Source of the DNA: Bacteroidales bacterium
GTDB lineage: Bacteria > Bacteroidota > Bacteroidia > Bacteroidales > UBA932
Assembly: GCA_017437125.1 (NCBI GenBank)
Contig: JAFSBV010000021.1
Coordinates: 19,992 to 83,991 of the forward strand
Reading direction: 5' to 3'
DNA length: 64,000 bases
Under the pieces are notes generated by a model. It was not told the origin of the DNA and searched no databases. It saw only the letters and a list, made by a program, of their open reading frames with translations. Position 1 is the stretch's first letter; each line of letters opens with the position of its first letter. Positions 13,794 to 64,000 of the stretch are shown here, in pieces. The position numbers and the translations under genes are program-made.

Positions 13794-14891
13794 ATGACTT
13801 ATTTTGAAGAAATCAAGGAACTTGTGAATAAGGTCCCACATACTTTGGCTGATTTCACACAGCCAAGAGATGTTGCTCGTATTCCAACTCAGGCAAGCTC
13901 CAATTTTATTACAAATAAAGAGCAGGGGGATTGGGCGGAGAATCTGCTGGCACGTGCGATAAATACGACTTCGAATTATTATGTTGCGGTCAAATATGGA
14001 AAGTCGGACGCTGTTGTAGCAGGTGAACCAGGTTTTGATGTTTTCTTCAAGGAATTTCAGGAAGAATTGGACGAGATCGGCAAACGGCCGGATCTGCTGA
14101 TATTCAGAAAAGAGGATTTTGATAAAGACTTAGGTATGGATATCAGTCATGTAGATCATACAAGGATTGATGAGTATGTCAGAAAGGCTGTAGCAGGCAT
14201 AGAAGTGAGGTCCAGTGCATTTCTGATTGACCATTACGAGGAAGCAATGCAGAATCGTGTTGCATGTTTTACTTCTAAAGCAATGGAGCTCAGAAATGAG
14301 ATTTTGGAAGAATATCACGAGGATCTCCAGCATCCTTCACGTGTGAAATATTGCCATCTTCTCGAAGGTATGACGGAAGAATCTCTGATCATTACAGATT
14401 TCAAGGTTCCCGGATGGAGGTCTTCTGAAAGATTGTTGTCTTTGAATGATAAACTCAAGGAACTTAAGGCTGCTATCAAGGAAATCCAGAAAAGAGACTA
14501 TCTGTCCATAACACCAAAGGTAGAGGATCTGAAGGTTGTATATAAGTGGATAGAGACATACAATGTGCCTCATTATTATTTTCAGGTCTTTTTTGACAAG
14601 GTATATGGAATATCCTTCAAAAGGATATTGGAGATAATATCGGATTCTGATAATGAGGGAATTGTTTTCTCTGTTGAGAGCGATTCAAAAAACCAGAATA
14701 AGGATACAATCAAGGTACGTTCAAAGTCAGGAATCGAAGTTGCATATAAAGTTGACGAACCTGATCATAGAAGCGTAAGAAAAGAGATGGAAAGGGGCCG
14801 TTTGCTTTTTTATGTGACGTTTGAAGGTGGTACGGCATACATTGACATAGATAAATTGAAGTCGGTTCTGGATTTAGAAGGAGAATTTTAG
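13794..14891 (+). CDS. AccI-family type II restriction endonuclease
   Basis: The 365-residue protein resembles the AccI restriction enzyme family in size (AccI is about 366) and in the catalytic region. RPDLLIF (about residues 98-104) followed by the long insert and [11 protein letters not shown] (about 140-150) gives a PD-ExK-like arrangement with R in place of the usual K, as is normal for this group. AccI cuts GTMKAC; this enzyme's site may be the same or a relative but is not shown by the sequence. The gene is visibly richer in A+T than miaA and smpB. Its stop overlaps the methylase start by one base. No controller protein gene is present. Confidence 0.82.
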
Positions 14892-16450
14892 TGCAGAGCA
14901 TGGGTTCCATAGAGTCGGATTATGTTCTTAGAACTCCGATAGAGCATCGCAAGCATTATGCTCAATTCTTTACCCCGGTCTCATTGGCGGATGTCATGAC
15001 TGATTGGTTGGTGAAGAAAGGGGATATAGTGTCAGTGCTGGAACCTGCTTTCGGACTGGGAGTATTTACCAGATGTCTTTTGGAAAAGAAGGATAATCTT
15101 GATATAAAAGGCTTTGATGTAGACGAAAAGATTTTTAATGAGAGCAGGAGAATATATGGATCGCAGGTAAATCTCTTGAATCAGGATTATATGCATAATG
15201 ACTGGAATAATAAATATGATGCCATTATCTGTAATCCACCTTATTTCAAGTTTCACAATTATGACAATAAAAAGATAATTGATGAGATCGAAGCTCGTCT
15301 TTCATGTAAACTGAATGGTTTTACCAATCTATATACATTGTTTTTGTTGAAGTCCATTCATCAGCTTAATCCAGGAGGAAGATGTGCATATATAGTACCT
15401 TCGGAGTTCCTGAATTCTGACTATGGAAGACTGGTGAAAAGACATTTGCTTAAGACAAGATCGCTACGTCATATTATTGTCTTTAGTTTTGAAGATAACC
15501 TTTTTGAAGATGCATTGACTACGTCTTGTCTTGTACTATGTGAAAACAGCGAGGACTGCGAAACAGTGCGTTTTACGTCTCTTCCTACACTGAATGGTAC
15601 GGGACTGATAAAGAAATGTCTGGACAATGATTTCCCTGATAATGTATTCAGCAGGGAATATGCCTTTTCTGATCTTGATCCTGATGTGAAATGGAAGAAT
15701 TATTATCAGGAATGCAATGTAAGTAAATATGGAAATCTGGTGCCGTTCTCTGTATATGCTAAAGTTATGAGGGGAATAGCAACGGGTGCGAATGATTTTT
15801 TCATATTCAATAAGTCCAAAGCAGAAGAACAGCATGTGGGTGAAGAATTTCTGCGTCCATGTGTTTGCAGGTGCGCAGATGTAAAGGGATCGGTTTTCAC
15901 CGAAGAAGACTATCAGAAACTGAAGGAAGCTGACAAGAATGTATATCTGTTGGATGCGGTTGGAGTGGAAGATGAAAATGTAAAAAGATATCTGAAAAGT
16001 GGAATTGCCGATGGGGTTGATAAAAAGTATCTGACTTCAAGTCGTAATCCATGGTATGCTCTTGAAAACCGATTACCTTCACCGATTTGGGTGACAGTCT
16101 TCAACAGAAAAGGATTGAGGTTTGTCAGAAATCAGGCAGGTGTCAGCAATCTTACTACATTTCATTGCGTATATCCTCAAAGAAGTCTTTATAATGATGT
16201 TTCTGATGATCTGTTGTTCGCCTATCTTCAGACCGATATAGCGAAGGAAATATTTGCAGATAACTGCAGAGAATATGGAAATGGATTGCAGAAATTTGAA
16301 CCGAATGATCTTAACAAAGGGATGATGATGGATATAGCATTACTTCCGGATCATGAAAAAAAGAAGATTGAGGCAATGGTCAGGGACTGTCCGGAATCAT
16401 TGCCTGTGAAAGAAATAGAAATTATATTATTAAAATATTTTCAGAATTAA
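14891..16450 (+). CDS. N6-adenine DNA methyltransferase of the AccI-type system
   Basis: This 519-residue protein is a gamma-class adenine methylase that would protect host DNA from the adjacent nuclease. In order: motif [14 protein letters not shown] (about residues 22-34), AdoMet motif [12 protein letters not shown] (about 50-60), catalytic motif [10 protein letters not shown] (about 112-119), then a long C-terminal target-recognition region. GTG 14891 is preferred over ATG 14900 because AAGGAG at 14878-14883 is 7 bases from the GTG. Length is close to M.AccI (about 540). The pair is flanked by conserved housekeeping genes with no integrase, so the insertion route is unknown. Confidence 0.86.
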
Positions 16451-16454
16451 GATT

Positions 16455-16904
16455 ATGCCGAAAGCAAAAAGCAGTGTAGAGATAAAGAACAGGAGGGCTT
16501 CGTTTGATTATGAGTTCATAGAGACCTTCCAGGCGGGAATTGTGCTTACCGGCACAGAGATAAAATCCATCAGGGCCGGAAAGGCTTCACTGGTGGATAC
16601 ATTCTGTTATTTCAATGGTAACGAGCTGTATGTCAAGAATATGCATGTTGCCGAATACTGGTGGGGCAGCTGGGGAAAGCATGACCCGCGCCGCGACAGG
16701 AAACTCCTTCTTAACCGCAAGGAACTCAACAGACTCCAGAGAGCGGTCAAGGAAAAGGGATTGACTATTGTTGGAGTCAAGCTTTATATTGCTGAGAACG
16801 GCTATGCAAAGATATTGATTGCATTGGCCCGTGGTAAGAAGGAATATGACAAACGTGCTTCCATCAAGGAGAAGGACCTCCGCAGGGAGATGGAAAGGAT
16901 ATAG
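16455..16904 (+). CDS. smpB: SsrA-binding protein
   Basis: The 149-residue protein binds tmRNA and brings it to stalled ribosomes. Family landmarks are [20 protein letters not shown], the [16 protein letters not shown] strand (about residues 30-46), and the C-terminal tail [18 protein letters not shown] (about 124-141) that enters the decoding centre. Length is normal. It starts 4 bases after the methylase stop, so the methylase may be read through into smpB, although conserved gene order suggests smpB once followed other sequence. No tmRNA gene is adjacent. Confidence 0.95.
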
Positions 16905-16915
16905 CGCTTCAGCAG

Positions 16916-16992
16916 AAAACAACATACCCCGTCGGGCAAGCGGAGCATTTTCCTGAATCTCTGCGAAGCGGCCCGACGGGGTATGTTGTTTT
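16916..16992. terminator. 22-bp perfect inverted repeat between smpB and metK
   Basis: The arms at 16916-16937 and 16971-16992 are exact reverse complements, starting AAAACAACATACC and ending GGTATGTTGTTTT, with a 33-base spacer. A-tract before and T-tract after make it a bidirectional terminator for the convergent genes. The stem is much longer than usual for a terminator. Confidence 0.85.
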
Positions 16993-17001
16993 CCGGATGT
17001 G

Positions 17002-18321
17002 CTAGAGGTTGAATGCTTCCTTGATCATGTCAACCGAGTCAAGGAGTTCCCAGCCGAAGAACTGGACAAGTTCCTGAACATCCTTGCCGTCACGTCTGAC
17101 GGTCACAGTCGCCTTGTAAGGGTCGCGGCCTACATGTCCGTATGAAGCTGTAGGCTCATAGATAGGCTTCTTGAGGCCGAACTTTTCGATGATCTTTGCA
17201 GGACGGAGGTCGAAGAGCTCCTCTATCTTGAGGGCGATCTCTGCATCAGTGAGTCCGTTCGCTGCAGTTCCGTATGTATTCACGAATATGCTCAACGGAC
17301 GTGCTACTCCGATCGCATATGAAACCTGGACGAGCATCTCTCGCGCTACGCCTGCCGCTACCATGTTCTTTGCGATGTAACGTGATGCATAAGCTGCTGA
17401 CCTGTCAACCTTAGAAGGATCCTTTCCTGAGAATGCTCCGCCGCCGTGTGCTCCCTTTCCGCCATATGTGTCCACGATGATCTTGCGTCCGGTAAGGCCT
17501 GTGTCGCCGTGAGGACCACCGATCACGAACTTGCCTGTAGGGTTTACATGAAGGATGTAGTCATCCTTGAAGAGCGCTGCTGTTTCAGGCGCGAGTGTGT
17601 CGATGAGCATAGGGAGAAGAATGTTACGGACATCTTCGCGTATCTTTGCCTGCATTGCCTCGTCAACCCTCTTCTGACCGAACTGTGCACATCCGTCAGC
17701 ATAGCTCATGTTTCCGAGAGAAGCCGGTGTAAACTCGTCATGCTGTGTCGAAATCACAATTGTATGAACGCGTACAGGCTCATTTGTCTCACCGTCATAC
17801 TCGATGGTGAACTGTGACTTCGAATCCGGACGGAGATATGGCATGAGCTCAGGCTTCTGCTTGCGGATCTTCGCGAGCATGAGAAGGGCCTGATGCGAGA
17901 GAGCAAGAGGGAGAGGCATATATTCCTCAGTGTCGCGGCATGCATATCCGAACATCATACCCTGGTCGCCTGCACCCTGTGCATCCGCATCTTCGCCTAC
18001 CACACCACGGTTGATATCAACGCTCTGCTCATGAAGGGCAGAAAGGATTCCGCATGAATTGCCGTCGAACATGTACTCGGCCTTGTTATAGCCGATCTTG
18101 TTGATGACGCGGCGCACTGTCTTCGGTATATCCACATATGCATCCTCTGAGCGGACTTCGCCGCCCACTACCACGAGACCGGTGCTGCAGAATGTCTCGC
18201 AAGCAACCTTCGCCTCAGGATCCTGACGGAGAAATTCGTCAAGAATTGCATCGGAAATCTGGTCCGAAACCTTGTCTGGGTGTCCTTCTGACACCGATTC
18301 AGATGTAAATAAATAGTTCAT
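17002..18321 (-). CDS. metK: S-adenosylmethionine synthetase
   Basis: The enzyme (439 residues) makes AdoMet from methionine and ATP. The start is set at ATG 18321 ([18 protein letters not shown]); a longer frame to 18465 would translate the riboswitch leader and is rejected. Signatures seen are [18 protein letters not shown] (about residues 8-25), the [12 protein letters not shown] hexapeptide region (about 116-127), and [19 protein letters not shown] (about 292-310). Length fits the Bacteroidetes form, which is longer than the 384 of E. coli. Expression is evidently fed back by its product through the SAM-II element at 18485-18535. Confidence 0.97.
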
Positions 18322-54864: not shown

Positions 54865-55054
54865 TGTGAAGGGATGGTGGTATGGATTTTTGTGTGCAGG
54901 TGCTGTTCTATGAAACGATGAACCGGTGACAGTTTGTCACTAATTGGGATTATGAGAGATATGGAGAGCTTGTTGGAGTAATGTAAATTGAAAGATATAA
55001 AATAATTTACAAGGCTAAATTATACTTGATATGAACAAAGAGATATAGTTTTTG

Positions 55055-55359
55055 ATGTACAGTACACCCCAGGGAGATGTGAATGTGGAGGCTGTTGTAA
55101 GGGATGAGATGTTGTGGCTGACTCAAAAGGCTATGGCTCAGTTGTTTGGGGTTGATAGGAGTGTGATTTCTAAACATTTAAATAATGTTTTTGATGAGTC
55201 TGAATTAGATAAAGAAGTGGTGCAATTGAAGGAAAAACCCAGACCCAAGAGGTTCAATTCTATAATCTTGATGCAATCATTTCTGTCGGCTATCGTGTGA
55301 ACTCGGCAAAAGCCACTCATTTCCGTATGTGGGCTACTAATTGGAACTCAACGGCATAG
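55055..55359 (+). pseudogene. Frameshifted and truncated RhuM-family gene
   Basis: Residues from MYSTPQGDVNVEAVVRDEML through the winged-helix-like WLTQKAMAQLFGVDRSVISK are a good RhuM N-terminus. The frame is lost at the run GGAAAAACCC (55231-55240). A second frame then continues the family with QEVQFYNLDAIISVGYRVNS and ATHFRMWATN (to about 55341), and runs to a stop at 55357. The remaining two thirds of RhuM are missing because the sequence joins the KAP gene remnant. A TTG at 55052 could add one residue. RhuM proteins often sit beside or inside type I restriction loci. Confidence 0.85.
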
Positions 55360-55925
55360 TCTGGCCTGCATCTGTCCAGTTCATCAATGAAAAATACCAA
55401 CGGTTTTCCTCCGCAATTGACTTCAATGAAATTTTGAAGTTCAGAGCGGAATTGCTGTAAGGCTTCCTTCTGATCACAATAAGACGTAATGTCATCATCA
55501 AAAGATTTATGCCTATTAAAGAGGTTTTTGATTGCTCCTTGTCCTGTATATATACTTATAAAGCCTTCTGTTCCAAGGCGTACAGATTTTGGTAAAGCTT
55601 TAATGATTCTCTTGAATGCTTTATTGTCCTTTCCTGTCAGGGAACCGACTTCTCCTAAAATGGATACTAAAGGATTTGTCGTAAAGTCCATCTCCCAGGC
55701 ATTGATATATGCGGTTTTATATCCTGATTTTTCGAGATACTTCTGCCACATTCTGACAAATGTGGTCTTTCCCGTTCCCCACGATCCATTCAACGCCATA
55801 GTGAATCCACCTTCTGCACAATCTATTACAGAAGTAAGAATCTTAGCAAACGGTTCCCTTTCAAGTTTGCAGTTTGCAAAAGGATTGTCTGCGGGAATTT
55901 CTGGAAATGAGGGTCTTAGTTTCAT
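55317..55925 (-). pseudogene. Truncated KAP-family P-loop ATPase
   Basis: The frame encodes 202 residues starting MKLRPSFPEIPADNPFANCK. Walker A is NGSWGTGKTTFVRMW (about residues 46-60) and Walker B is LVFFIDELDRCRPDYAVE (about 174-191). Normal KAP proteins continue for hundreds of residues after this point; here the sequence switches at about 55341-55350 into RhuM DNA read backwards (FQLVAHIRK) and stops. KAP ATPases are found in phage-defence and mobile contexts. The N-terminal half may still be made but is unlikely to work. Confidence 0.82.
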
Positions 55926-56071
55926 AGTTTGTAGTATTTAAGGCGAATAGTATCAAGATTTATTCCGTTGTGTAATAATGCCAAAATGGCAGAAAAGAGT
56001 CTAAAGCGTGTAACTTTCATAGGGCATATGCAAATGGTTTTAGTCTCGTTTTACTATGGTGATATTTTTTC

Positions 56072-56079
56072 TATCTTTG
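56072..56079 (+). promoter_or_regulatory. -7 box of the type I restriction operon
   Basis: TATCTTTG on the plus strand, 38 bases before ATG 56118, with a weak TTTT at the -33 position (56049-56052). This argues for the 56118 start, because the longer frame from 55968 begins upstream of it. Confidence 0.65.
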
Positions 56080-56117
56080 TAGGGTTGCAAGAAATTGAGG
56101 ATTCAAAATCACTTATT

Positions 56118-58949
56118 ATGACAGTACAAAGCGAGAACTCACTGGAGCAGGGATTGATCAGGACTCTGCAGGAGAATAGCTATGAGTATGTGGAGATAAA
56201 AGAAGAAGAGAATCTCCGCAGCAATTTCAAGCTTCAGTTGGAGAAACATAACCGTAAGGCTCTTGAAGATGTGGGGCGTACCGGATTCACAGAGGCTGAG
56301 TTCGACAAGATCATGCTCCATCTTGAAGGAGGAACTCGCTTTGAAAAATCCAAGAAACTTCGTGACCTTAAAGATTTCGAGCTTGAGGATGGCCAGATAA
56401 TATGGGTTTCTTTCCTGAATACAAAGAAGTGGTGCCAGAATGAGTTCCAGGTTGCCAATCAGATAACTGTTGAAGGTAGGAAGAAATGTCGTTACGATGT
56501 TACGATTCTGATCAATGGTCTTCCTCTAGTACAGATTGAACTCAAGAAAAGAGGGGTCGAACTTAAAGAGGCATATAATCAGGTTCAGAGATATCATAAG
56601 ACTTCTTTTCACGGGCTCTTCGATTATATTCAGTTGTTCGTAATCTCGAATGGTGTAAATACTAGATACTTTGCGAATAATCCGAATGGCGGCTATAAGT
56701 TTACGTTTAATTGGACTGATAAGAATAATCATCCGATGAATGACCTTAGTCTGTTTGCGACGGATTTTCTGGATAAATGTACACTCGGCAAGGTCATAAG
56801 CAAATACATAGTTCTACACGAGGGTGACAAGTGCCTTATGGTGCTCCGTCCATACCAGTATTATGCTGTGGAGGAGATAATCAACCGCGTAGAGAACACC
56901 AATAAGAATGGATATGTATGGCATACTACAGGAGCTGGTAAGACTCTGACATCATTCAAGGCTGCACAGCTTGTATCTGAGATTGATGGCGTGGATAAGG
57001 TTATGTTTGTGGTTGACCGTCACGATCTTGATACCCAGACGCAGAGTGAATATGAGGCTTTTGAGCCCGGCGCTGTTGATAGCACGGACAATACTTATCA
57101 ACTTATCAAACGTCTGAGTGGTAAGTCAAAGATCATTATAACGACTATCCAGAAATTGAACTGTGCCGTAAAGAAAGATTATTATAATCAGCATCTTCAG
57201 GCTCTCAGGGACAAGAAGATAGTGATGATTTTTGATGAATGTCATCGTAGCCAGTTTGGAGAAAGTCATAAGAATATTGTCAATTTCTTTAAGAATTACC
57301 AGATTTTCGGCTTTACAGGAACTCCGATCTTTGTTGAGAACGCCAAACAGGATAAGACGACTAAGGAGATCTTCGGTGAGTGTCTGCATAAATATCTCAT
57401 CAAAGATGCCATAGCGGATGAGAATGTATTAGGCTTCCTTGTGGAGTATTATCAGGGTCAGCAGGATGTTGATACGATGTCTCCGAAAAGGATGAAGGAG
57501 ATTGCCCAGTTTATCCTGAATAATTATGATAAATCTACTTTTGACGGAGAATTCAATGCTCTTTTTGCAGTGCAGTCAGTTCCGATGCTGATAGATTATT
57601 ATAAGATATTCAAGTCCTTGAATCCTGACATAAAGATCGGTGCCGTCTTTACTTATGCAGCAAATGAAAGTCAGGATGATGATAAGACAGGAATGGGGCA
57701 GGGATTTGATGACGACAAGGTAACTGCTGATGAACTTCAATTGATCATTGATGACTACAATAATATGTTCGGCACGGCCTTCAGTACTGATAATTTCAGC
57801 GCATATTATGATGACGTCAACGAACGAATGAAGAAGCGTAAGAAGGATATGGAGCCGTTGGATCTTCTTCTGGTAGTCGGAATGTTCTTGACAGGTTTTG
57901 ATGCGAAGAAGCTTAACACCTTGTACGTGGATAAGAATCTGGAATATCACGGGCTCTTACAGGCTTTCAGCCGTACCAATCGCGTCCTCAATGAGAAGAA
58001 GCGCTTTGGTAAAATAATGTGTTTCAGAGATCTGAAGGAAAATGTAGATGCTGCTGTCAAGTTGTTCAGTAAAGATGATAATAAGGAAGAATTTGAGCCG
58101 ATTATCAGACCTCCTTTCAAAGAAGTGCGAAAGGAGTTGAATGAGAAGATGATAGCATTCCTTGAGAAATATCCTTCCCCAGCATATATTGATTCCCTCC
58201 AAAGCGAATACGATAAGCGTGATTTCGTGTTGGCTTTCAGAGATATCATCAAGAAAAGAATTGAAATACAGATATACGAAGACTATAGTCCGGATGATGC
58301 ATACTTCCTTATGTCTGATCAGGAGTTTCAGGACTTCAAGTCGAAGTACCTTGATATAACCATAGGGGTTATAGATAAGCCGGATTCTGGGAAACTCAAT
58401 GAGCCACAGGCTCCATATGGCGACAAGGATGCAGAACTGTTTGATATAGATTTCTGTCTTGAACTGCTTCATAGTGATGTTATCAATGTCGCATATATTC
58501 TTGCATTGATTGCTGACCTTAACCCAGAAAGCGAAGACTATGAGCAGAAGCGTCAAAGCATTCTCGACACAATGATCAAGGATGCCGGAATGCGTAATAA
58601 GACAAAGCTGATAGACGGATTCATCAAGAAGAATGTCGATAATGATAAGGCTGGATTTGTCAAGGCTAAAGTTGACGGAACAGCAGATCTTGAGGAAAAG
58701 CTGAAATCATATGTTTCAGAACAAAAGAAAAAGGCTATAGTGGAACTGGCTGAAGATGAAGAACTGAGCGTTGAGGCTCTTGCAGAGTTCTTTAGAGAAT
58801 ATGACTATCTTCAGAGAGAGAAGTCAGAAATCATTCAAGACGCCATAAAGAATAGAAAAACTAAGGTCGGTCTTGTAGAACGCAGAAATATCTTCAAGAG
58901 AGTGATGGCGCGCATCCGTACCATAATCGATACATTTAACTGGGATTAA
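56118..58949 (+). CDS. hsdR: Type I restriction enzyme, R (endonuclease/translocase) subunit
   Basis: From ATG 56118 (MTVQSENSLEQGLIRTL) the protein has 943 residues; the 50 additional upstream codons precede the promoter and look non-coding. The N-terminal nuclease domain has VQIELKKRG (about 137-145, the ExK part of PD-ExK). The SF2 translocase domain has WHTTGAGKTLTSFKAAQL (Walker A, about 267-284), MIFDECHRSQFG (about 368-379), FGFTGTP (about 394-400) and GLLQAFSRTNRV (motif VI, about 612-623). It cuts DNA after HsdS/M detect unmodified sites. The gene order is R-M-S with 14 bases to hsdM. Confidence 0.95.
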   Translation: MTVQSENSLEQGLIRTLQENSYEYVEIKEEENLRSNFKLQLEKHNRKALEDVGRTGFTEAEFDKIMLHLEGGTRFEKSKKLRDLKDFELEDGQIIWVSFLNTKKWCQNEFQVANQITVEGRKKCRYDVTILINGLPLVQIELKKRGVELKEAYNQVQRYHKTSFHGLFDYIQLFVISNGVNTRYFANNPNGGYKFTFNWTDKNNHPMNDLSLFATDFLDKCTLGKVISKYIVLHEGDKCLMVLRPYQYYAVEEIINRVENTNKNGYVWHTTGAGKTLTSFKAAQLVSEIDGVDKVMFVVDRHDLDTQTQSEYEAFEPGAVDSTDNTYQLIKRLSGKSKIIITTIQKLNCAVKKDYYNQHLQALRDKKIVMIFDECHRSQFGESHKNIVNFFKNYQIFGFTGTPIFVENAKQDKTTKEIFGECLHKYLIKDAIADENVLGFLVEYYQGQQDVDTMSPKRMKEIAQFILNNYDKSTFDGEFNALFAVQSVPMLIDYYKIFKSLNPDIKIGAVFTYAANESQDDDKTGMGQGFDDDKVTADELQLIIDDYNNMFGTAFSTDNFSAYYDDVNERMKKRKKDMEPLDLLLVVGMFLTGFDAKKLNTLYVDKNLEYHGLLQAFSRTNRVLNEKKRFGKIMCFRDLKENVDAAVKLFSKDDNKEEFEPIIRPPFKEVRKELNEKMIAFLEKYPSPAYIDSLQSEYDKRDFVLAFRDIIKKRIEIQIYEDYSPDDAYFLMSDQEFQDFKSKYLDITIGVIDKPDSGKLNEPQAPYGDKDAELFDIDFCLELLHSDVINVAYILALIADLNPESEDYEQKRQSILDTMIKDAGMRNKTKLIDGFIKKNVDNDKAGFVKAKVDGTADLEEKLKSYVSEQKKKAIVELAEDEELSVEALAEFFREYDYLQREKSEIIQDAIKNRKTKVGLVERRNIFKRVMARIRTIIDTFNWD

Positions 58950-58963
58950 AACATTATAATAAT

Positions 58964-60508
58964 ATGAGCGAAGAATTGCAGCAGAAACTTCGCAACCAGC
59001 TTTGGACGGTTGCGAATACCTTGAGAGGAAATATGTCCGCTGGTGACTTTATGTATTACACCCTCGGATTCATCTTCTATAAATATCTGTCTGAGAAGAT
59101 TGAGAAGACTGCGGATGAAGTTCTGCAGGATGATGGTATGACTTTCAAGGAGGCATGGGCCAGCAATGATGAGGAACTGAAGGAGGCTCTGAAAGAGGAG
59201 TGTATTCAGAATCTCGGCTACTTTGTCGAGCCAGAGTTCCTATACTCAACAATCATATCAATGATTGACAAGAAGGAGAACATTCTCCCTGCTCTTGGTC
59301 GCTCTTTGAAGAAGATTGAGGACAGTACCCTTGGACAGGATTCTGAAGATGATTTTGGCGGCCTGTTCTCTGATATAGATTTGACTTCGCAGAAAATCGG
59401 CAAGACTGCGGAGGAGAAGAATCGTCTCGTGAGCGATGTGCTTCTTAATCTGAACGAGATTGATTTCGGCCTTAGCGAAGCAGCTGAAATAGATATTCTT
59501 GGCGACGCATACGAGTACATGATTGGTCAGTTTGCGGCTGGGGCTGGAAAGAAAGCTGGTGAATTTTATACTCCACAGGAGGTGAGCCAGATTCTTGCGG
59601 AGATTGTCATCACAGGAAAGACCCGCTTGAAGAGCGTTTATGACCCGACATGTGGATCCGGATCTCTTCTTTTGAGAGCAGCTCGCGAGGGTAACGCAGA
59701 TACTATCTACGGTCAGGAGAAGAACCCTACGACATTCAACCTCTGCCGAATGAACATGCTGCTGCATGGTATCAAGTACAACAACTTTGAGATCCATAAT
59801 GATGATACTCTTGAGAGGGACGAGCTGGGTGATAAGCAGTTTGATGCTGTAGTCGCAAACCCTCCTTTCTCAGCAGAGTGGTCGGCAGCTGAAAAGTTCA
59901 ATAACGATGATCGCTTCAGCAAGGCGGGCAAGTTGGCTCCAAAGTCTAAGGCTGACTATGCTTTCATTCTTCACATGATCTATCACTTGAATGATGGTGG
60001 TACAATGGCTTGTGTAGCTCCTCATGGAGTGCTTTTCCGTGGTGCTGCTGAAGGTGCAATCCGTCAGTTCTTGATTGAAAAGAAGAACTACATTGACGCA
60101 ATCATCGGTCTTCCTGCAAACATCTTCTACGGTACAAGTATTCCGACATGTATCCTCGTGATGAAGAAGTGCCGCCAGCCAGATGATAACATTCTCTTCA
60201 TTGATGCCAGCAAGGAATTCGAGAAGGTAAAGACCCAGAACAAACTTCGTCCTGAGCATATCCGGAAGATCGTTGATACTTATCGCAATCGCACAGAGAT
60301 TGAGAAATATAGCCACTTGGCATCCCTTCAGGAAATCAAGGATAATGACTATAATCTCAATATACCGCGTTATGTTGATACATTCGAGGAGGAAGAGGAA
60401 ATCGATATCAAGGCTGTAATGGCAGAGATTAAGGAACTTGAGGCAAAGAGAGCAGAGCTTGATGCTCAGATAGAGGTGTACCTTAAGGAGTTGGGAATCG
60501 TTGAATAA
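58964..60508 (+). CDS. hsdM: Type I restriction enzyme, M (DNA methyltransferase) subunit
   Basis: The 514-residue N6-adenine methyltransferase has the HsdM N-terminal helical domain (QQKLRNQLWTVANTLRGN, DFMYYTLGFIFYKYLSEK), AdoMet motif I SVYDPTCGSGSLLLRAA (about 223-239) and catalytic VVANPPFSAEW (about 296-306). A C-terminal coiled coil (AEIKELEAKRAELDAQIEVY) contacts HsdS. Two copies plus one HsdS form the methylase; which site is methylated depends on the HsdS in the expression slot. The stop TAA overlaps the hsdS ATG by one base. Confidence 0.96.
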   Translation: MSEELQQKLRNQLWTVANTLRGNMSAGDFMYYTLGFIFYKYLSEKIEKTADEVLQDDGMTFKEAWASNDEELKEALKEECIQNLGYFVEPEFLYSTIISMIDKKENILPALGRSLKKIEDSTLGQDSEDDFGGLFSDIDLTSQKIGKTAEEKNRLVSDVLLNLNEIDFGLSEAAEIDILGDAYEYMIGQFAAGAGKKAGEFYTPQEVSQILAEIVITGKTRLKSVYDPTCGSGSLLLRAAREGNADTIYGQEKNPTTFNLCRMNMLLHGIKYNNFEIHNDDTLERDELGDKQFDAVVANPPFSAEWSAAEKFNNDDRFSKAGKLAPKSKADYAFILHMIYHLNDGGTMACVAPHGVLFRGAAEGAIRQFLIEKKNYIDAIIGLPANIFYGTSIPTCILVMKKCRQPDDNILFIDASKEFEKVKTQNKLRPEHIRKIVDTYRNRTEIEKYSHLASLQEIKDNDYNLNIPRYVDTFEEEEEIDIKAVMAEIKELEAKRAELDAQIEVYLKELGIVE

Positions 60509-61659
60509 TGGCTGCTATGGAAAAGAACAATAAGAACCTTAATGTTCCGAATTTGAGATTTCCGGAGTTTAGTGGAGAGTGGGATAATGGAACACTACAG
60601 TCTGTAGCTACTCTCTCAAAAGGTACAGGTATCTCAAAAGATCAACTTTCTGAAGAGGGGCAACCCTGCATATTGTATGGTGAATTATATACAAAGTACA
60701 GGTCAGAAATAATAGATATAATTATCAGTAAGACTGACATTGATCCTAAAAAATTGGTTACAAGCCAGTCTAATGATGTGATTATTCCATGCTCCGGTGA
60801 ATCGGCAGTTGATATTGCAACAGCAAGGTGTGTAAAACAATCAAATATCCTTTTGGGTGGAGACCTTAATATCATTAGACTTAAAGGAGAACATGACGGA
60901 AGTTTCTTTGCATATCAACTAAATGGGAGACGGAAATACGATATAGCAAAAGTGGCTCAAGGTGTTTCCGTTGTACATCTTTATGGTGAGCATCTTAAGG
61001 GAGTAAAAGTAAACTATCCTTCTGCTGCAGAGCAGAAGAAGATATCCTCATTGCTTGCACTGATAGACCAACGCATTGAGACCCAAAAGAAAATCATTGA
61101 GAAATACGAATCTCTAATCAGAGGGCTATGTCAAAAGTTATTCTGTTTTGATGAGTACTCGACCTATTATTTAGGAAACATCTGCTCTATCACGACTGGT
61201 AAATTGGATGCAAACGCAATGGTTATGGATGGTAAGTATCCCTTCTTTACTTGTGCAGAGGAAGTGTTCAACATTGATAATTATGCATTTGACACAGAAG
61301 CTCTATTGATTTCGGGCAATGGTGCAAACTTGGGATATATCCATTACTTCAATGGCAAGTTTAATGCATACCAGAGAACCTATGTATTGGATAAATTTAC
61401 AATTGACATAAACTATATTAGACTATATCTTGAGACTTTCCTCAAAAATAGAATAGAGCAAGAAAAGAATATTGGCAATACTCCATATATCGTATTGGGT
61501 ACTCTTTCCAAAATGAAAATTAGAGTACCAAACATTATAACTCAGCAGAAAATAGTCAAAACCTTGAGCTCTCTAAAGGAAAAACTTTCTAACGAAAGAC
61601 TTGCTCTTGTAAAATATGGAGAGCAGAAAAAGTATCTGCTCTCCAATCTGTTTATATAA
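60508..61659 (+). CDS. hsdS: Type I restriction enzyme, S (specificity) subunit in the expression slot
   Basis: The 383-residue protein is the only HsdS here with a proper start joined to hsdM. It has an N-terminal lead (NVPNLRFPEFSGEW, about 12-25), target domain 1 (about 25-170), central conserved helix (SSLLALIDQRIETQKKIIEK, about 179-198), target domain 2 (about 215-345) and a C-terminal conserved helix ending YLLSNLFI. Each target domain reads half of a split DNA site. Its DNA repeats at 60540-60569, 61063-61101 and 61115-61129 all have inverted partners downstream. The last coding bases form the palindrome TTTATATAAA shared with the opposite cassette. Confidence 0.94.
   Translation: MAAMEKNNKNLNVPNLRFPEFSGEWDNGTLQSVATLSKGTGISKDQLSEEGQPCILYGELYTKYRSEIIDIIISKTDIDPKKLVTSQSNDVIIPCSGESAVDIATARCVKQSNILLGGDLNIIRLKGEHDGSFFAYQLNGRRKYDIAKVAQGVSVVHLYGEHLKGVKVNYPSAAEQKKISSLLALIDQRIETQKKIIEKYESLIRGLCQKLFCFDEYSTYYLGNICSITTGKLDANAMVMDGKYPFFTCAEEVFNIDNYAFDTEALLISGNGANLGYIHYFNGKFNAYQRTYVLDKFTIDINYIRLYLETFLKNRIEQEKNIGNTPYIVLGTLSKMKIRVPNIITQQKIVKTLSSLKEKLSNERLALVKYGEQKKYLLSNLFI
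60540..60569 (+). repeat. hsdS inverted repeat A, expression-slot copy
   Basis: These 30 bases (coding for NVPNLRFPEF) are an exact inverted copy of 63860-63889 in the silent full hsdS. Recombination here would exchange target domain 1. Confidence 0.9.
61063..61101 (+). repeat. hsdS inverted repeat B (central helix), expression-slot copy
   Basis: 39 bases, 35 of them identical to the inverted copy at 63337-63375. They encode DQRIETQKKIIE. The last 18 bases are a perfect match. Confidence 0.85.
61115..61129 (+). repeat. hsdS inverted repeat C, expression-slot copy
   Basis: TAATCAGAGGGCTAT (encoding part of LIRGL) has an exact inverted copy at 62188-62202 in the first half cassette, at the border of target domain 2. 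Confidence 0.8.
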
Positions 61660-62263
61660 AGAGATTGCGGAGTAGATACGACTTCTGACATTGCCATCTT
61701 TGCAGTATTCTTTTTTCGAGATCGCATTTTGCAGACACGTCTTCAAGAATATCTGCAACTCTATTCTGCTGCTTTGTAGGTAATACTCTTATTTCAAATA
61801 TTTCCAAGTCTTTCTTTTGCACATTGGGAAGCCCAGATCCTATGCGGAGAGCCATGATGTCCCGTTCCTTATATTTCAAGAAATGATAAAGATATTGATA
61901 GTTTACACTTTGCCCTTTCTGAATCAGTGAGTAGCAATGTCCACCACTCCAAAACGGCTCGGCATTATATTGTACATACCCACATGAGTTTCCGCCCTCG
62001 GATATAGAGATTGTATTGGCTGGGGTGTTACACGCATCCAGATACCCAGAAGGCTCAGTGCCACCATTCATTACATAGTACTTGCCGTGTTCAAGTAATT
62101 CCTCTACATTGACCTGCTTTCCTTTAACTACGGATACCACATCCTTTAGTCGCATGGTAGATGCTTGCCGATTGAAAACGGAGTGATATAGCCCTCTGAT
62201 TAAGGAAATATATTCCTTTTCGGATGCGATTAGGACAAAACTATTCAGACATATGGAAAGCAC
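61652..62263 (-). CDS. Silent half-hsdS cassette 1 (target domain 2 plus C-terminal helix)
   Basis: The frame encodes 203 residues, but homology to HsdS begins only at EKEYISLIRGLYHSVFNRQ (near 62218), the end of the central helix. Then comes a single target domain (RLKDVVSVVKGKQVNVEELL to LRIGSGLPNVQKKDLE) and the conserved helix (KQQNRVADILEDVSAKCDLE ... YLLRNLFI). It has no first target domain, no promoter and only a GTG start, so it is a donor rather than a working gene. It lies tail to tail with hsdS and shares TTTATATAAA with it. Confidence 0.87.
   Translation of the reverse strand: MLSICLNSFVLIASEKEYISLIRGLYHSVFNRQASTMRLKDVVSVVKGKQVNVEELLEHGKYYVMNGGTEPSGYLDACNTPANTISISEGGNSCGYVQYNAEPFWSGGHCYSLIQKGQSVNYQYLYHFLKYKERDIMALRIGSGLPNVQKKDLEIFEIRVLPTKQQNRVADILEDVSAKCDLEKRILQRWQCQKSYLLRNLFI
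62188..62202 (-). repeat. hsdS inverted repeat C, cassette 1 copy
   Basis: Minus-strand TAATCAGAGGGCTAT, exact partner of 61115-61129. Next to it the near-palindrome AAGGAAATATATTCCTT (62202-62218) marks the head-to-head border of the two half cassettes. Confidence 0.8.
62222..62232 (+). repeat. hsdS inverted repeat D, cassette 2 copy
   Basis: GGATGCGATTA has an exact inverted copy at 63309-63319 in the silent full hsdS. Repeat D is absent from the expression-slot hsdS, so the pairs are specific. Confidence 0.65.
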
Positions 62264-62771
62264 ATGCTCTGCCTATGACGAAACTCGTAATATGCTTGAT
62301 TATGAGCAACCTACTGAATATTTGGTAAACTCAACAGAATACTCTGATAGTTATCAGACTCCTGTACTAACCGCAAATAAGGCTTTCATATTGGGCTATA
62401 CTGATGAGGTACATGGGATATACGACAAGAGTGATTGCATTATTCTTGATGATTTCACTATGGATGTAAAGTACGTTACATTCCCATTTAAGGTCAAATC
62501 ATCGGCCATAAAAATACTTACAGCAAAGCAAGGTGTGGATTTATACTTCATGTATGAGTATCTCTTGCATCTCGGTCTCGTTTCAGAGGAGCATAAACGG
62601 CACTACATATCAGAAATTGAACCGATGACTTTATTCCGTCCGACACTACAAGAACAGAACAGAATAGTTCAAACGCTTAAGGCGTTAGATATGCAAGTGC
62701 AAAGTGCTAATAGGCTGAGTGATTTATTATTAAAGCAAAAGCAATATATCATCTCTCAGATGTTTATATAA
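62253..62771 (+). CDS. Silent half-hsdS cassette 2 (target domain 2 plus C-terminal helix)
   Basis: The frame from ATG 62253 gives 172 residues and stays open upstream to at least 62190, where SDAIRTKLFRHMEST resembles the end of the central helix. One target domain is present, with the widespread LDYEQPTEYLV and ILGYTDEVHGIY and IILDDFTMDVKYV pattern, then the C-terminal helix (QEQNRIVQTLKALDMQVQ ... YIISQMFI). It has no promoter or first target domain. It is head to head with cassette 1 and tail to tail with the silent full gene. Confidence 0.87.
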   Translation: MESTCSAYDETRNMLDYEQPTEYLVNSTEYSDSYQTPVLTANKAFILGYTDEVHGIYDKSDCIILDDFTMDVKYVTFPFKVKSSAIKILTAKQGVDLYFMYEYLLHLGLVSEEHKRHYISEIEPMTLFRPTLQEQNRIVQTLKALDMQVQSANRLSDLLLKQKQYIISQMFI

Positions 62772-63876
62772 ACATTTGTGAGAGCAGATATGCCTTTTGC
62801 TGTATTAGTAAATTCTCATATTGGAATTCAGTTTCAATCTTCTTGTCTATGTGCCTAAGAATACGGCTCCAATATTTTTGTGTGTCGATGTCCGGTAACT
62901 TAACTTTGATTGAGGCCATTGTGTTATTCATCAATTTTGGGTTGGCAAGGTTTATTGATACATATTTCGCAGTGGCAGATTGTAATACGACAGACAGGAA
63001 ATATGCATCTATATTTTTATCGACTTTAATAGTACCACAAACATTTGTACAATTAAATCTGCCGTTTCGATAGAATACTGTACCTGCATTTGCTCCATCT
63101 GTCGTCCATGTGATATATTCCCCATCAAAGTCATAATCGTCCAAATATCCCATGATACCATTATTAGAAGTTTGTGAGGAATACACAGGGTATTGAGGCC
63201 TTTCTTGTTTGCTTATTTCTATGGTACTGATTACTCGTCCTCTACCTAAAACAGAAATCTCTGATATTTTATATTCTTTCCATGATTGGTCAAATAGATT
63301 ATTATAATTAATCGCATCCTTTAACTTTTTCAAGTCCTCAATGATTTTCTTTTGAGTTTCGATGCGTTGATCTATTAAAGATAACAAGGAGACTAATTTC
63401 TCTTGTTCAGCTTTCGAGGGTATATTCGTGTGGATTTTCTTTAGTTCATTTGCAGATATCTCTAGGAAAGTGGAGCCGCACGATCTTCTCAGCATCTCTC
63501 TCTTAATCTTTGCAACAATATAGTACAAGAACTCAGAACTCACATTGTTTTCTTTAGCCACCAATGACTGGAATCCCTGGTTCGTTGTACATTCAGTAGT
63601 AGCGATTGAGCATTCTCCAATTGTTGCTCTTGTGCTTAATAGCACAGTTCCTTGTGGTAATAATTTGGCACTGGAATTTTTGAGCCCAGCTTCTGTGATA
63701 GTTCTATCGCTCAAATATGCATATTTCCCCTTACCTATTTCAGATGGTGTGAACCACTGAATGTTACCACCCCAATATTCATCGACAGATGTATCTGGAG
63801 TACCACCTCCAATTATGTCTGCAATAGTTGAAAGAGGGACCGCCTTCCACTCCCCAGAGAACTCCGGAAATCTCAA
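62764..63876 (-). CDS. Silent full-length hsdS lacking a start
   Basis: The frame (370 residues from a TTG at 63876) contains both target domains (about 10-155 and 205-330), the central helix SLIDQRIETQKKIIEDLK and the C-terminal helix YLLSQMFI. The coding match to the expressed gene extends further upstream (DYSYNVPNL) to a TGA at 63901-63903, so there is no normal start codon and no promoter. It is therefore a reservoir copy that could be activated by inversion through repeats A, B or D. The last bases overlap cassette 2 in TTTATATAAA (62763-62772). Confidence 0.88.
   Translation of the reverse strand: MRFPEFSGEWKAVPLSTIADIIGGGTPDTSVDEYWGGNIQWFTPSEIGKGKYAYLSDRTITEAGLKNSSAKLLPQGTVLLSTRATIGECSIATTECTTNQGFQSLVAKENNVSSEFLYYIVAKIKREMLRRSCGSTFLEISANELKKIHTNIPSKAEQEKLVSLLSLIDQRIETQKKIIEDLKKLKDAINYNNLFDQSWKEYKISEISVLGRGRVISTIEISKQERPQYPVYSSQTSNNGIMGYLDDYDFDGEYITWTTDGANAGTVFYRNGRFNCTNVCGTIKVDKNIDAYFLSVVLQSATAKYVSINLANPKLMNNTMASIKVKLPDIDTQKYWSRILRHIDKKIETEFQYENLLIQQKAYLLSQMFI
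63309..63319 (-). repeat. hsdS inverted repeat D, silent full copy
   Basis: Minus-strand GGATGCGATTA, exact partner of 62222-62232, at the start of the silent gene's second target domain. Confidence 0.65.
63337..63375 (-). repeat. hsdS inverted repeat B (central helix), silent copy
   Basis: Minus-strand partner of 61063-61101 with four changes, all at synonymous positions. Confidence 0.85.
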
Positions 63877-63889
63877 ATTCGGAACATTA
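63860..63889 (-). repeat. hsdS inverted repeat A, silent copy
   Basis: Exact 30-base inverted partner of 60540-60569. An inversion between the two would flip 3.3 kb and place this gene behind the hsdM start region. Confidence 0.9.
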
Positions 63890-63959
63890 TAGGAGTAATC
63901 TCACGTTCGTGTGCATTGAGGATTCCGTAATATAGTGTTGTATTAAATCTTACAACATT

Positions 63960-64000
63960 ATGGATAACAAAACTTTTGAAGAGATTGTCGTGCTGTGGCA
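63960..64000 (+). CDS. Start of a new gene, possibly a site-specific recombinase (cut by window edge)
   Basis: ATG 63960 opens a frame MDNKTFEEIVVLW that runs off the window. A short inverted repeat (GTTGTA ... TACAAC) lies just before it. The residues and the position beside an hsdS inversion locus are what one expects of a tyrosine recombinase N-terminus, but 13 residues cannot prove it. Confidence 0.35.
   Translation, partial: MDNKTFEEIVVLW

Follow-up and report, generated by a model that had tools for sequence, protein, structure and literature searches.

The window analysed here is a stretch of 64,000 nucleotides (nt) from a Bacteroidales bacterium (lineage UBA932; GenBank assembly GCA_017437125.1, contig JAFSBV010000021.1, positions 19,992 to 83,991 of the forward strand), and towards its end lies a type I restriction-modification locus whose specificity gene, hsdS, is present in several pieces. 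This locus is very probably an invertible hsdS array, switched by a site-specific recombinase and offering eight possible HsdS forms. The sequence-only reading that preceded our analysis had proposed a type I specificity locus that can invert, with one hsdS piece expressed and three silent, and the genes, the repeats, a simulation and the related loci make it, in our judgement, the best reading. The source assembly comprises 2.80 megabases in 99 contigs and is 91% complete; the last base of the window is a contig end. The genes and pieces of the locus are the following.

55968-58949, plus strand: hsdR (Pfam HSDR_N, SWI2_SNF2 and EcoR124_C; PADLOC REase_I, E=2.4e-266).
58964-60508, plus strand: hsdM, 514 amino acids (aa) (Pfam N6_Mtase, E=2.9e-116, and HsdM_N).
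60508-61659, plus strand: hsdS A, the expressed specificity gene, 383 aa (Methylase_S, E=9.1e-26).
61652-62263, minus strand: B, a silent half gene with a second target domain and a SLIRG-type head (Methylase_S, E=1.2e-24).
62187-62771 (open frame; open reading frame, ORF, from ATG 62253-62771), plus strand: C, a silent half gene with a second target domain and a DAI-type head (Methylase_S, E=1.2e-4).
62764-63876 (ORF; frame open to 63900), minus strand: D, a silent full-length piece with both target domains but missing its start region (Methylase_S, E=2.3e-52, in two stretches).
63960-64000, plus strand: start of a putative tyrosine recombinase, first 13 codons MDNKTFEEIVVLW, its DNA 82% identical to the start of an integrase gene in a related locus (L123).

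The three genes hsdR, hsdM and hsdS A are co-directional, with hsdS A directly behind hsdM, its first ATG overlapping the hsdM stop (TAATG). The start of the hsdR ORF is uncertain, the frame opened by a TTG having 993 aa. Pfam Methylase_S is above its cut-off in all four pieces, which C barely passes (22.7 bits for a cut-off of 22). ORFs and Methylase_S matches thus agree with the layout first proposed, one complete hsdS behind hsdM, then two halves and one full piece in alternating orientation (+ - + -). Together, the silent pieces hold one second first domain and three further second domains. The conserved start region is found only behind hsdM, B, C and D having internal candidate starts only, so that the HsdS forms are probably made one at a time. 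The in-frame TGA that was said to replace the start region of D is indeed present in the minus-strand frame (63901-63903). Going upstream from D, no in-frame stop comes before it, and it lies just outside the outermost inverted repeat (IR1 below), as it should if the start is part of the fixed flank.

The pieces are joined by four sets of inverted repeats (IR), which sit at the domain borders.

60540-60582 (exact over 60540-60569), plus strand: IR1 in A, encoding NVPNLRFPEF; 30 nt exact, 43 nt at 91%.
63847-63889 (exact over 63860-63889), minus strand: IR1 in D; 30 nt exact, 43 nt at 91%.
61063-61101, plus strand: IR2 in A, in the linker between target domains; 35 of 39 nt identical, with an 18-nt exact core at 61084-61101.
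63337-63375, minus strand: IR2 in D; 35 of 39 nt identical, with the 18-nt exact core.
61115-61129, plus strand: IR3 in A, TAATCAGAGGGCTAT, in the SLIRGL head; 15 nt exact.
62188-62202, minus strand: IR3 in B; 15 nt exact.
62222-62232, plus strand: IR4 in C, GGATGCGATTA; 11 nt exact.
63309-63319, minus strand: IR4 in D, the partner of GGATGCGATTA; 11 nt exact.

To set the chance level we counted exact inverted repeats in 300 dinucleotide shuffles of positions 60001-64000, which held on average 0.02 of at least 15 nt, the longest having 16 nt. IR1, IR2 and IR3 are above chance. The case for IR4 comes from relatives, where the pairing of C and D heads and the junction of an inverted block at an IR4-type site, both described below, lend it support. 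The sequence-only reading had placed inverted repeats at all domain borders. Its three pairs are real, but they leave the border between C and D uncovered, which needs IR4 (62222-62232/63309-63319).

The difference matters for the number of products. Scripted inversion at all four exact repeats of the array gave 16 arrangements, each with an intact hsdS behind hsdM, and eight distinct HsdS proteins of 380-388 aa, i.e. two first by four second domains. With IR1 to IR3 only, the same simulation gave eight arrangements and six products. The earlier count of eight specificities is thus reproduced, though only with a repeat that it had not listed: since the three listed repeats yield six forms, eight require IR4. 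In the mechanism we propose, the recombinase starting at 63960, which is complete in relatives, would invert the DNA between matching repeats. Inversion at IR1 would swap whole genes behind the start, and inversion at IR2 everything past the linker, while IR3 would exchange the second domains of A and B and IR4 those of C and D. Each of the eight HsdS proteins would be expected to set a different methylation and restriction target.

The ORF from 63960 is very likely a tyrosine recombinase. Of 200 genomes of the genus, three matched in a DNA search with positions 63893-64000, one of them the source genome of the window; in L123 the match falls at the beginning of a complete recombinase of about 306 aa, 3' of a similar array. 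The recombinases of L123, L093 and L062, the three tested, belong to the Phage_integrase (tyrosine) family. Among 80 related loci, 36 have a recombinase, always on the plus strand and after the last hsdS piece. A search of NCBIfam with hsdS A, piece D and two of the recombinases returned nothing above cut-off. A recombinase with a similar N-terminus is also found in L124 (5979-6926, plus strand), where the surrounding ORF list has no evident hsdS piece, although no hsdS search was made there; it is possibly left over or acting in trans.

The related loci come from an HsdM-guided search with 399 relatives, from which the 80 best were retained; with the window and L123 they make up the 82 loci discussed below. 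Their record titles are mostly of Bacteroidales or groups within Bacteroidales. Within the genus the locus is patchy, since HsdM at 80% identity or more occurs in only two of 36 genomes. The exact + - + - layout of hsdS pieces was found in 19 of the 82 loci, 13 of which have a recombinase of one family downstream; in the remaining loci the pieces are fewer or broken, or the contig runs out. Contigs end less than 2 kilobases after hsdM in 31 of 80 loci, and less than 2 kilobases before it in five of 80. Eleven of the 80 end 83-190 nt after hsdM, and in seven of these the LRF motif of IR1 can be recognised 11-126 nt before the end, so that the ends do not all lie within the repeat. Such breaks after hsdM may be those that short-read assembly gives at a shuffled hsdS, although repeats by themselves could also produce them.

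Several related loci carry an extra gene between hsdM and hsdS, varying by locus, where the window has none. We take it to be RhuM-like in L046, L101 and L029 and YhcG/DUF1016-like in L028; in L093 and L122 it is another ORF. In L122, from Phocaeicola vulgatus ATCC 8482, an insertion at 15629-18026 with transposase-like genes, presumably IS66-like, splits the silent full hsdS piece.

Six pairs of loci were compared directly, five chosen because their domains are alike and one, the window with L047, because L047 is the nearest array to the window. Inverted blocks were found in four of the six. L116 (Parabacteroides massiliensis) and L122 share a block of 865 nt at 99.9% identity in opposite orientation and a second one of 1155 nt (99.7%) that is displaced in the same orientation. 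The two blocks overlap by 10 nt only, GTCTGCGATT, at an IR4-type site. We infer that an IR2-type inversion followed by an IR4-type inversion would account for the difference. Between L066 and L069 (Dysgonomonas), 1271 nt (93%) are inverted and 832 nt (99%) direct, and between L080 and L100 an inverted block of 1161 nt (97%) lies beside 751 direct nt (98.5%). L103 and L108 differ by an inverted block of 617 nt (92%) that moves a first domain between D and A, with 1272 nt (92%) direct alongside.

The heads of the second domains fall into two types, SLIKG-like and KLKxAI-like, and suggest a pairing rule in which A and B share a type, C and D share a type, and A differs from D. This holds in ten of the 13 loci where all four heads could be typed, six in the window's state and four in the opposite one; the typing patterns were written after viewing the heads, and noisy upstream residues were partly misread. 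A first assignment of target domains to slots had wrongly labelled shortened first genes as C, and its counts are not used. At the DNA level, the A head scores higher against B than against C in 14 of 16 loci, L058 and L089 being ties, and the D head matches C better than B in 12 of 14 (exceptions L076 and L123). The A and D heads match as well (scores of 9.5-23.5 in 11 loci), an effect of head windows that take in part of IR2. For IR1, the 24-nt core is 0.944 identical within loci and 0.784 between loci in the 31 loci with both copies; none of 5000 permutations reached the within-locus value, and the two copies are exact in 12 of the 31.

Part of the codons at all four classes of site are strongly biased, a lead that is possibly new. 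All 82 loci were searched and the background is the hsdS codon usage of the 19 loci with the + - + - layout; the counts are non-independent, the loci being related, and the codons reported were picked after viewing the sites. At IR1, leucine is TTG in 78 of 91 cases (background 0.24) and arginine AGA in 74 of 91 (0.36). IR2 shows isoleucine as ATT in 58 of 62 (0.46) and GAG in 51 of 56 glutamate codons (0.35), six of the 62 residues not being glutamate. In SLIKG heads serine is TCC in 25 of 27 (0.12) and leucine TTA in 22 of 27 (0.25), and in KLKxAI heads leucine is CTA or TTA (0.38) and lysine AAG (0.35) in 20 of 20 each. The bias spares other positions. The third bases of the IR1 prolines (majority 0.34 and 0.48) and of its first phenylalanine (0.58) are no more conserved than codons of conserved hsdM residues (proline 0.47, phenylalanine 0.70), and the isoleucine of SLIKG heads is split between 15 ATT and 12 ATC. 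A hexamer, YTRARR, can be read in the coding direction in each site class and may be part of the core that the recombinase reads; it was spotted post hoc and without a control. One might speculate, although we regard this as doubtful, that a single tyrosine recombinase reads four short and differing sites within coding sequence, each constrained as DNA in part of its silent codon positions. The two matched, non-crossing head types (SLIKG and KLKxAI) would then form a hierarchical four-bit switch, where outer swaps pick the domain pair and inner swaps act within the pair. In the literature searched, neither the two-head pairing rule nor the silent-site constraint was stated, but no search was aimed directly at either and key papers were outside its scope.

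Several observations weigh against an active invertible array in the window. Taken alone, the 11 nt of IR4 are within chance: the shuffles average 2.7 pairs of at least 11 nt, and the ten such inverted pairs of the real region include several away from domain borders. The pairing rule is broken in three of the 13 fully typed loci, L101, L103 and L122. By eye, C of L122 has a SLIKG head, the second B fragment of L101 reads SLIQAI and L103 has two sub-types, and we still count them as exceptions. Among 30 partly typed loci there are further misfits, some of them in loci without half genes: A equals D in L062 and L115, B, C and D are alike in L079, L119 and L123, A, B and D are alike in L085, and A differs from B in L090. 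Comparison of L077 with L100 gave no long inverted block, the long block being direct. The closest HsdM relative (L043, 98%) is on a contig that stops 170 nt after the hsdM frame, so that there is no close sister array to compare, and a DNA search of that genome for an alternative arrangement hit nothing but the end of this contig. Other points would fit an array that is real but frozen, its silent pieces relics and its recombinase lost or inactive in this strain. The contig stops 13 codons into the recombinase ORF, and a search of the rest of the genome bin for a good copy gave only one weak match (E=9e-6). The B-C block of L047 has the same orientation as that of the window (1159 nt, 80%), and inversion in this population is a prediction. 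Yet the pieces retain open frames to the common tail, all eight predicted products are intact and the copies of IR1 are exact over 30 nt, which leaves a frozen array very little chance.

The rearrangements could also be the work of homologous recombination of the RecA type, or of gene conversion, with no dedicated site-specific recombinase. IR1 and IR2 are 30-39 nt long, the copies of IR1 are alike within loci, and in pneumococcus the recombination of spnIII is described as independent of known site-specific recombinases (PMC6620402). This explanation is at odds with repeats of merely 15 and 11 nt at IR3 and IR4, with a junction between the L116 and L122 blocks bounded by 10 shared nt, with the integrase that follows the hsdS pieces in those 36 of 80 related loci and with the strong bias at several silent codon positions of the sites, and we find it improbable. 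An assembly artefact, in which a metagenome bin combines hsdS pieces from more than one strain, might be suspected in an assembly of 99 contigs and 91% completeness, the more so as contigs of related loci often break here. But the + - + - layout with a recombinase recurs in 13 other loci, including the strain records of Segatella copri iA622 (L093) and P. massiliensis SN4 (L116), and P. vulgatus ATCC 8482 has the same layout interrupted by its insertion. We consider an artefact barely credible. An array inverted by a site-specific recombinase is what we retain.

Other genes of the window were also noted. Upstream of hsdR, an 82-aa frame (55052-55300, plus strand) matches PADLOC PDC-S05 models, some of which are equally short, and may or may not be truncated; next to it, a KAP P-loop nucleoside triphosphatase of 202 aa (55317-55925, minus strand) matches only the first half of PDC-S20. 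Both may be remnants of defence genes. A further DNA methyltransferase, of the Eco57I type, is encoded at 14891-16450 on the plus strand (PADLOC MTase_II, E=5.3e-211).

The locus belongs to a known class and matches an hsdS shufflon of Bacteroides fragilis that was in print by 2010 (PMC3090145). In its passages on 'Shufflon BB' of strain NCTC 9343 (BF1839-1842) and the related locus of 638R, that paper gives eight HsdS combinations, four inverted-repeat sets tied to the rearrangement of target domains and, adjoining the last hsdS, a tyrosine integrase, and it points to a 2005 genome paper for the NCTC 9343 shufflons. Both IR2 copies of the window align with the one repeat that the paper prints, at 29 of 38 positions each. 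As in Shufflon BB, a start-bearing hsdS stands behind hsdM in an hsdR-hsdM-hsdS operon, and in the window too the silent pieces alternate downstream. Both have four repeat sets and eight combinations, those of the window in silico. They differ in their hosts, in the recombinase, cut off here 13 codons in by a contig end, and in that inversion is predicted for the window. A system studied by Ben-Assa and colleagues reportedly has eight specificity proteins as well, and is said to occur widely in the phylum. By its title, their paper concerns a phase-variable restriction-modification system of B. fragilis (Ben-Assa et al. 2020, NAR 48:11040).

Other systems resemble the locus by description, as given in the passages cited here. 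SpnD39III of Streptococcus pneumoniae, a six-way switch (PMC4190663), also carries a recombinase gene within the locus, and its duplicated hsdS genes contain inverted repeats (PMC4190663, PMC7394358), but it has six forms instead of eight. Inverted repeats in hsdS loci are listed for a set of species that includes B. fragilis (PMC7394358), restriction-modification shufflons are described in B. fragilis strains, with an integrase suggested to act on one of them (PMC5729914), and signs of inversion are reported for type I systems of 13 species (PMC5903667). The rearranging hsdS region of Prevotella intermedia also inverts within hsdS, its pieces being mainly fragments (PMC5608340), and hsdS invertons are described in the gut community hCom2, whose inverton group 145 is enriched for genes of restriction subunit S and tyrosine recombinases (PMC11892184). 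These passages do not give rules for the recombinase site, which the details seen across our loci would help to define, i.e. a fourth short repeat needed for eight forms, two matched repeat types and site DNA conserved beyond the protein. The array also points to a reason for the frequent contig breaks at hsdS in genomes of this kind. The window adds one more Bacteroidales array to an already described group of epigenetic and defence switches, with Shufflon BB as its counterpart in B. fragilis.

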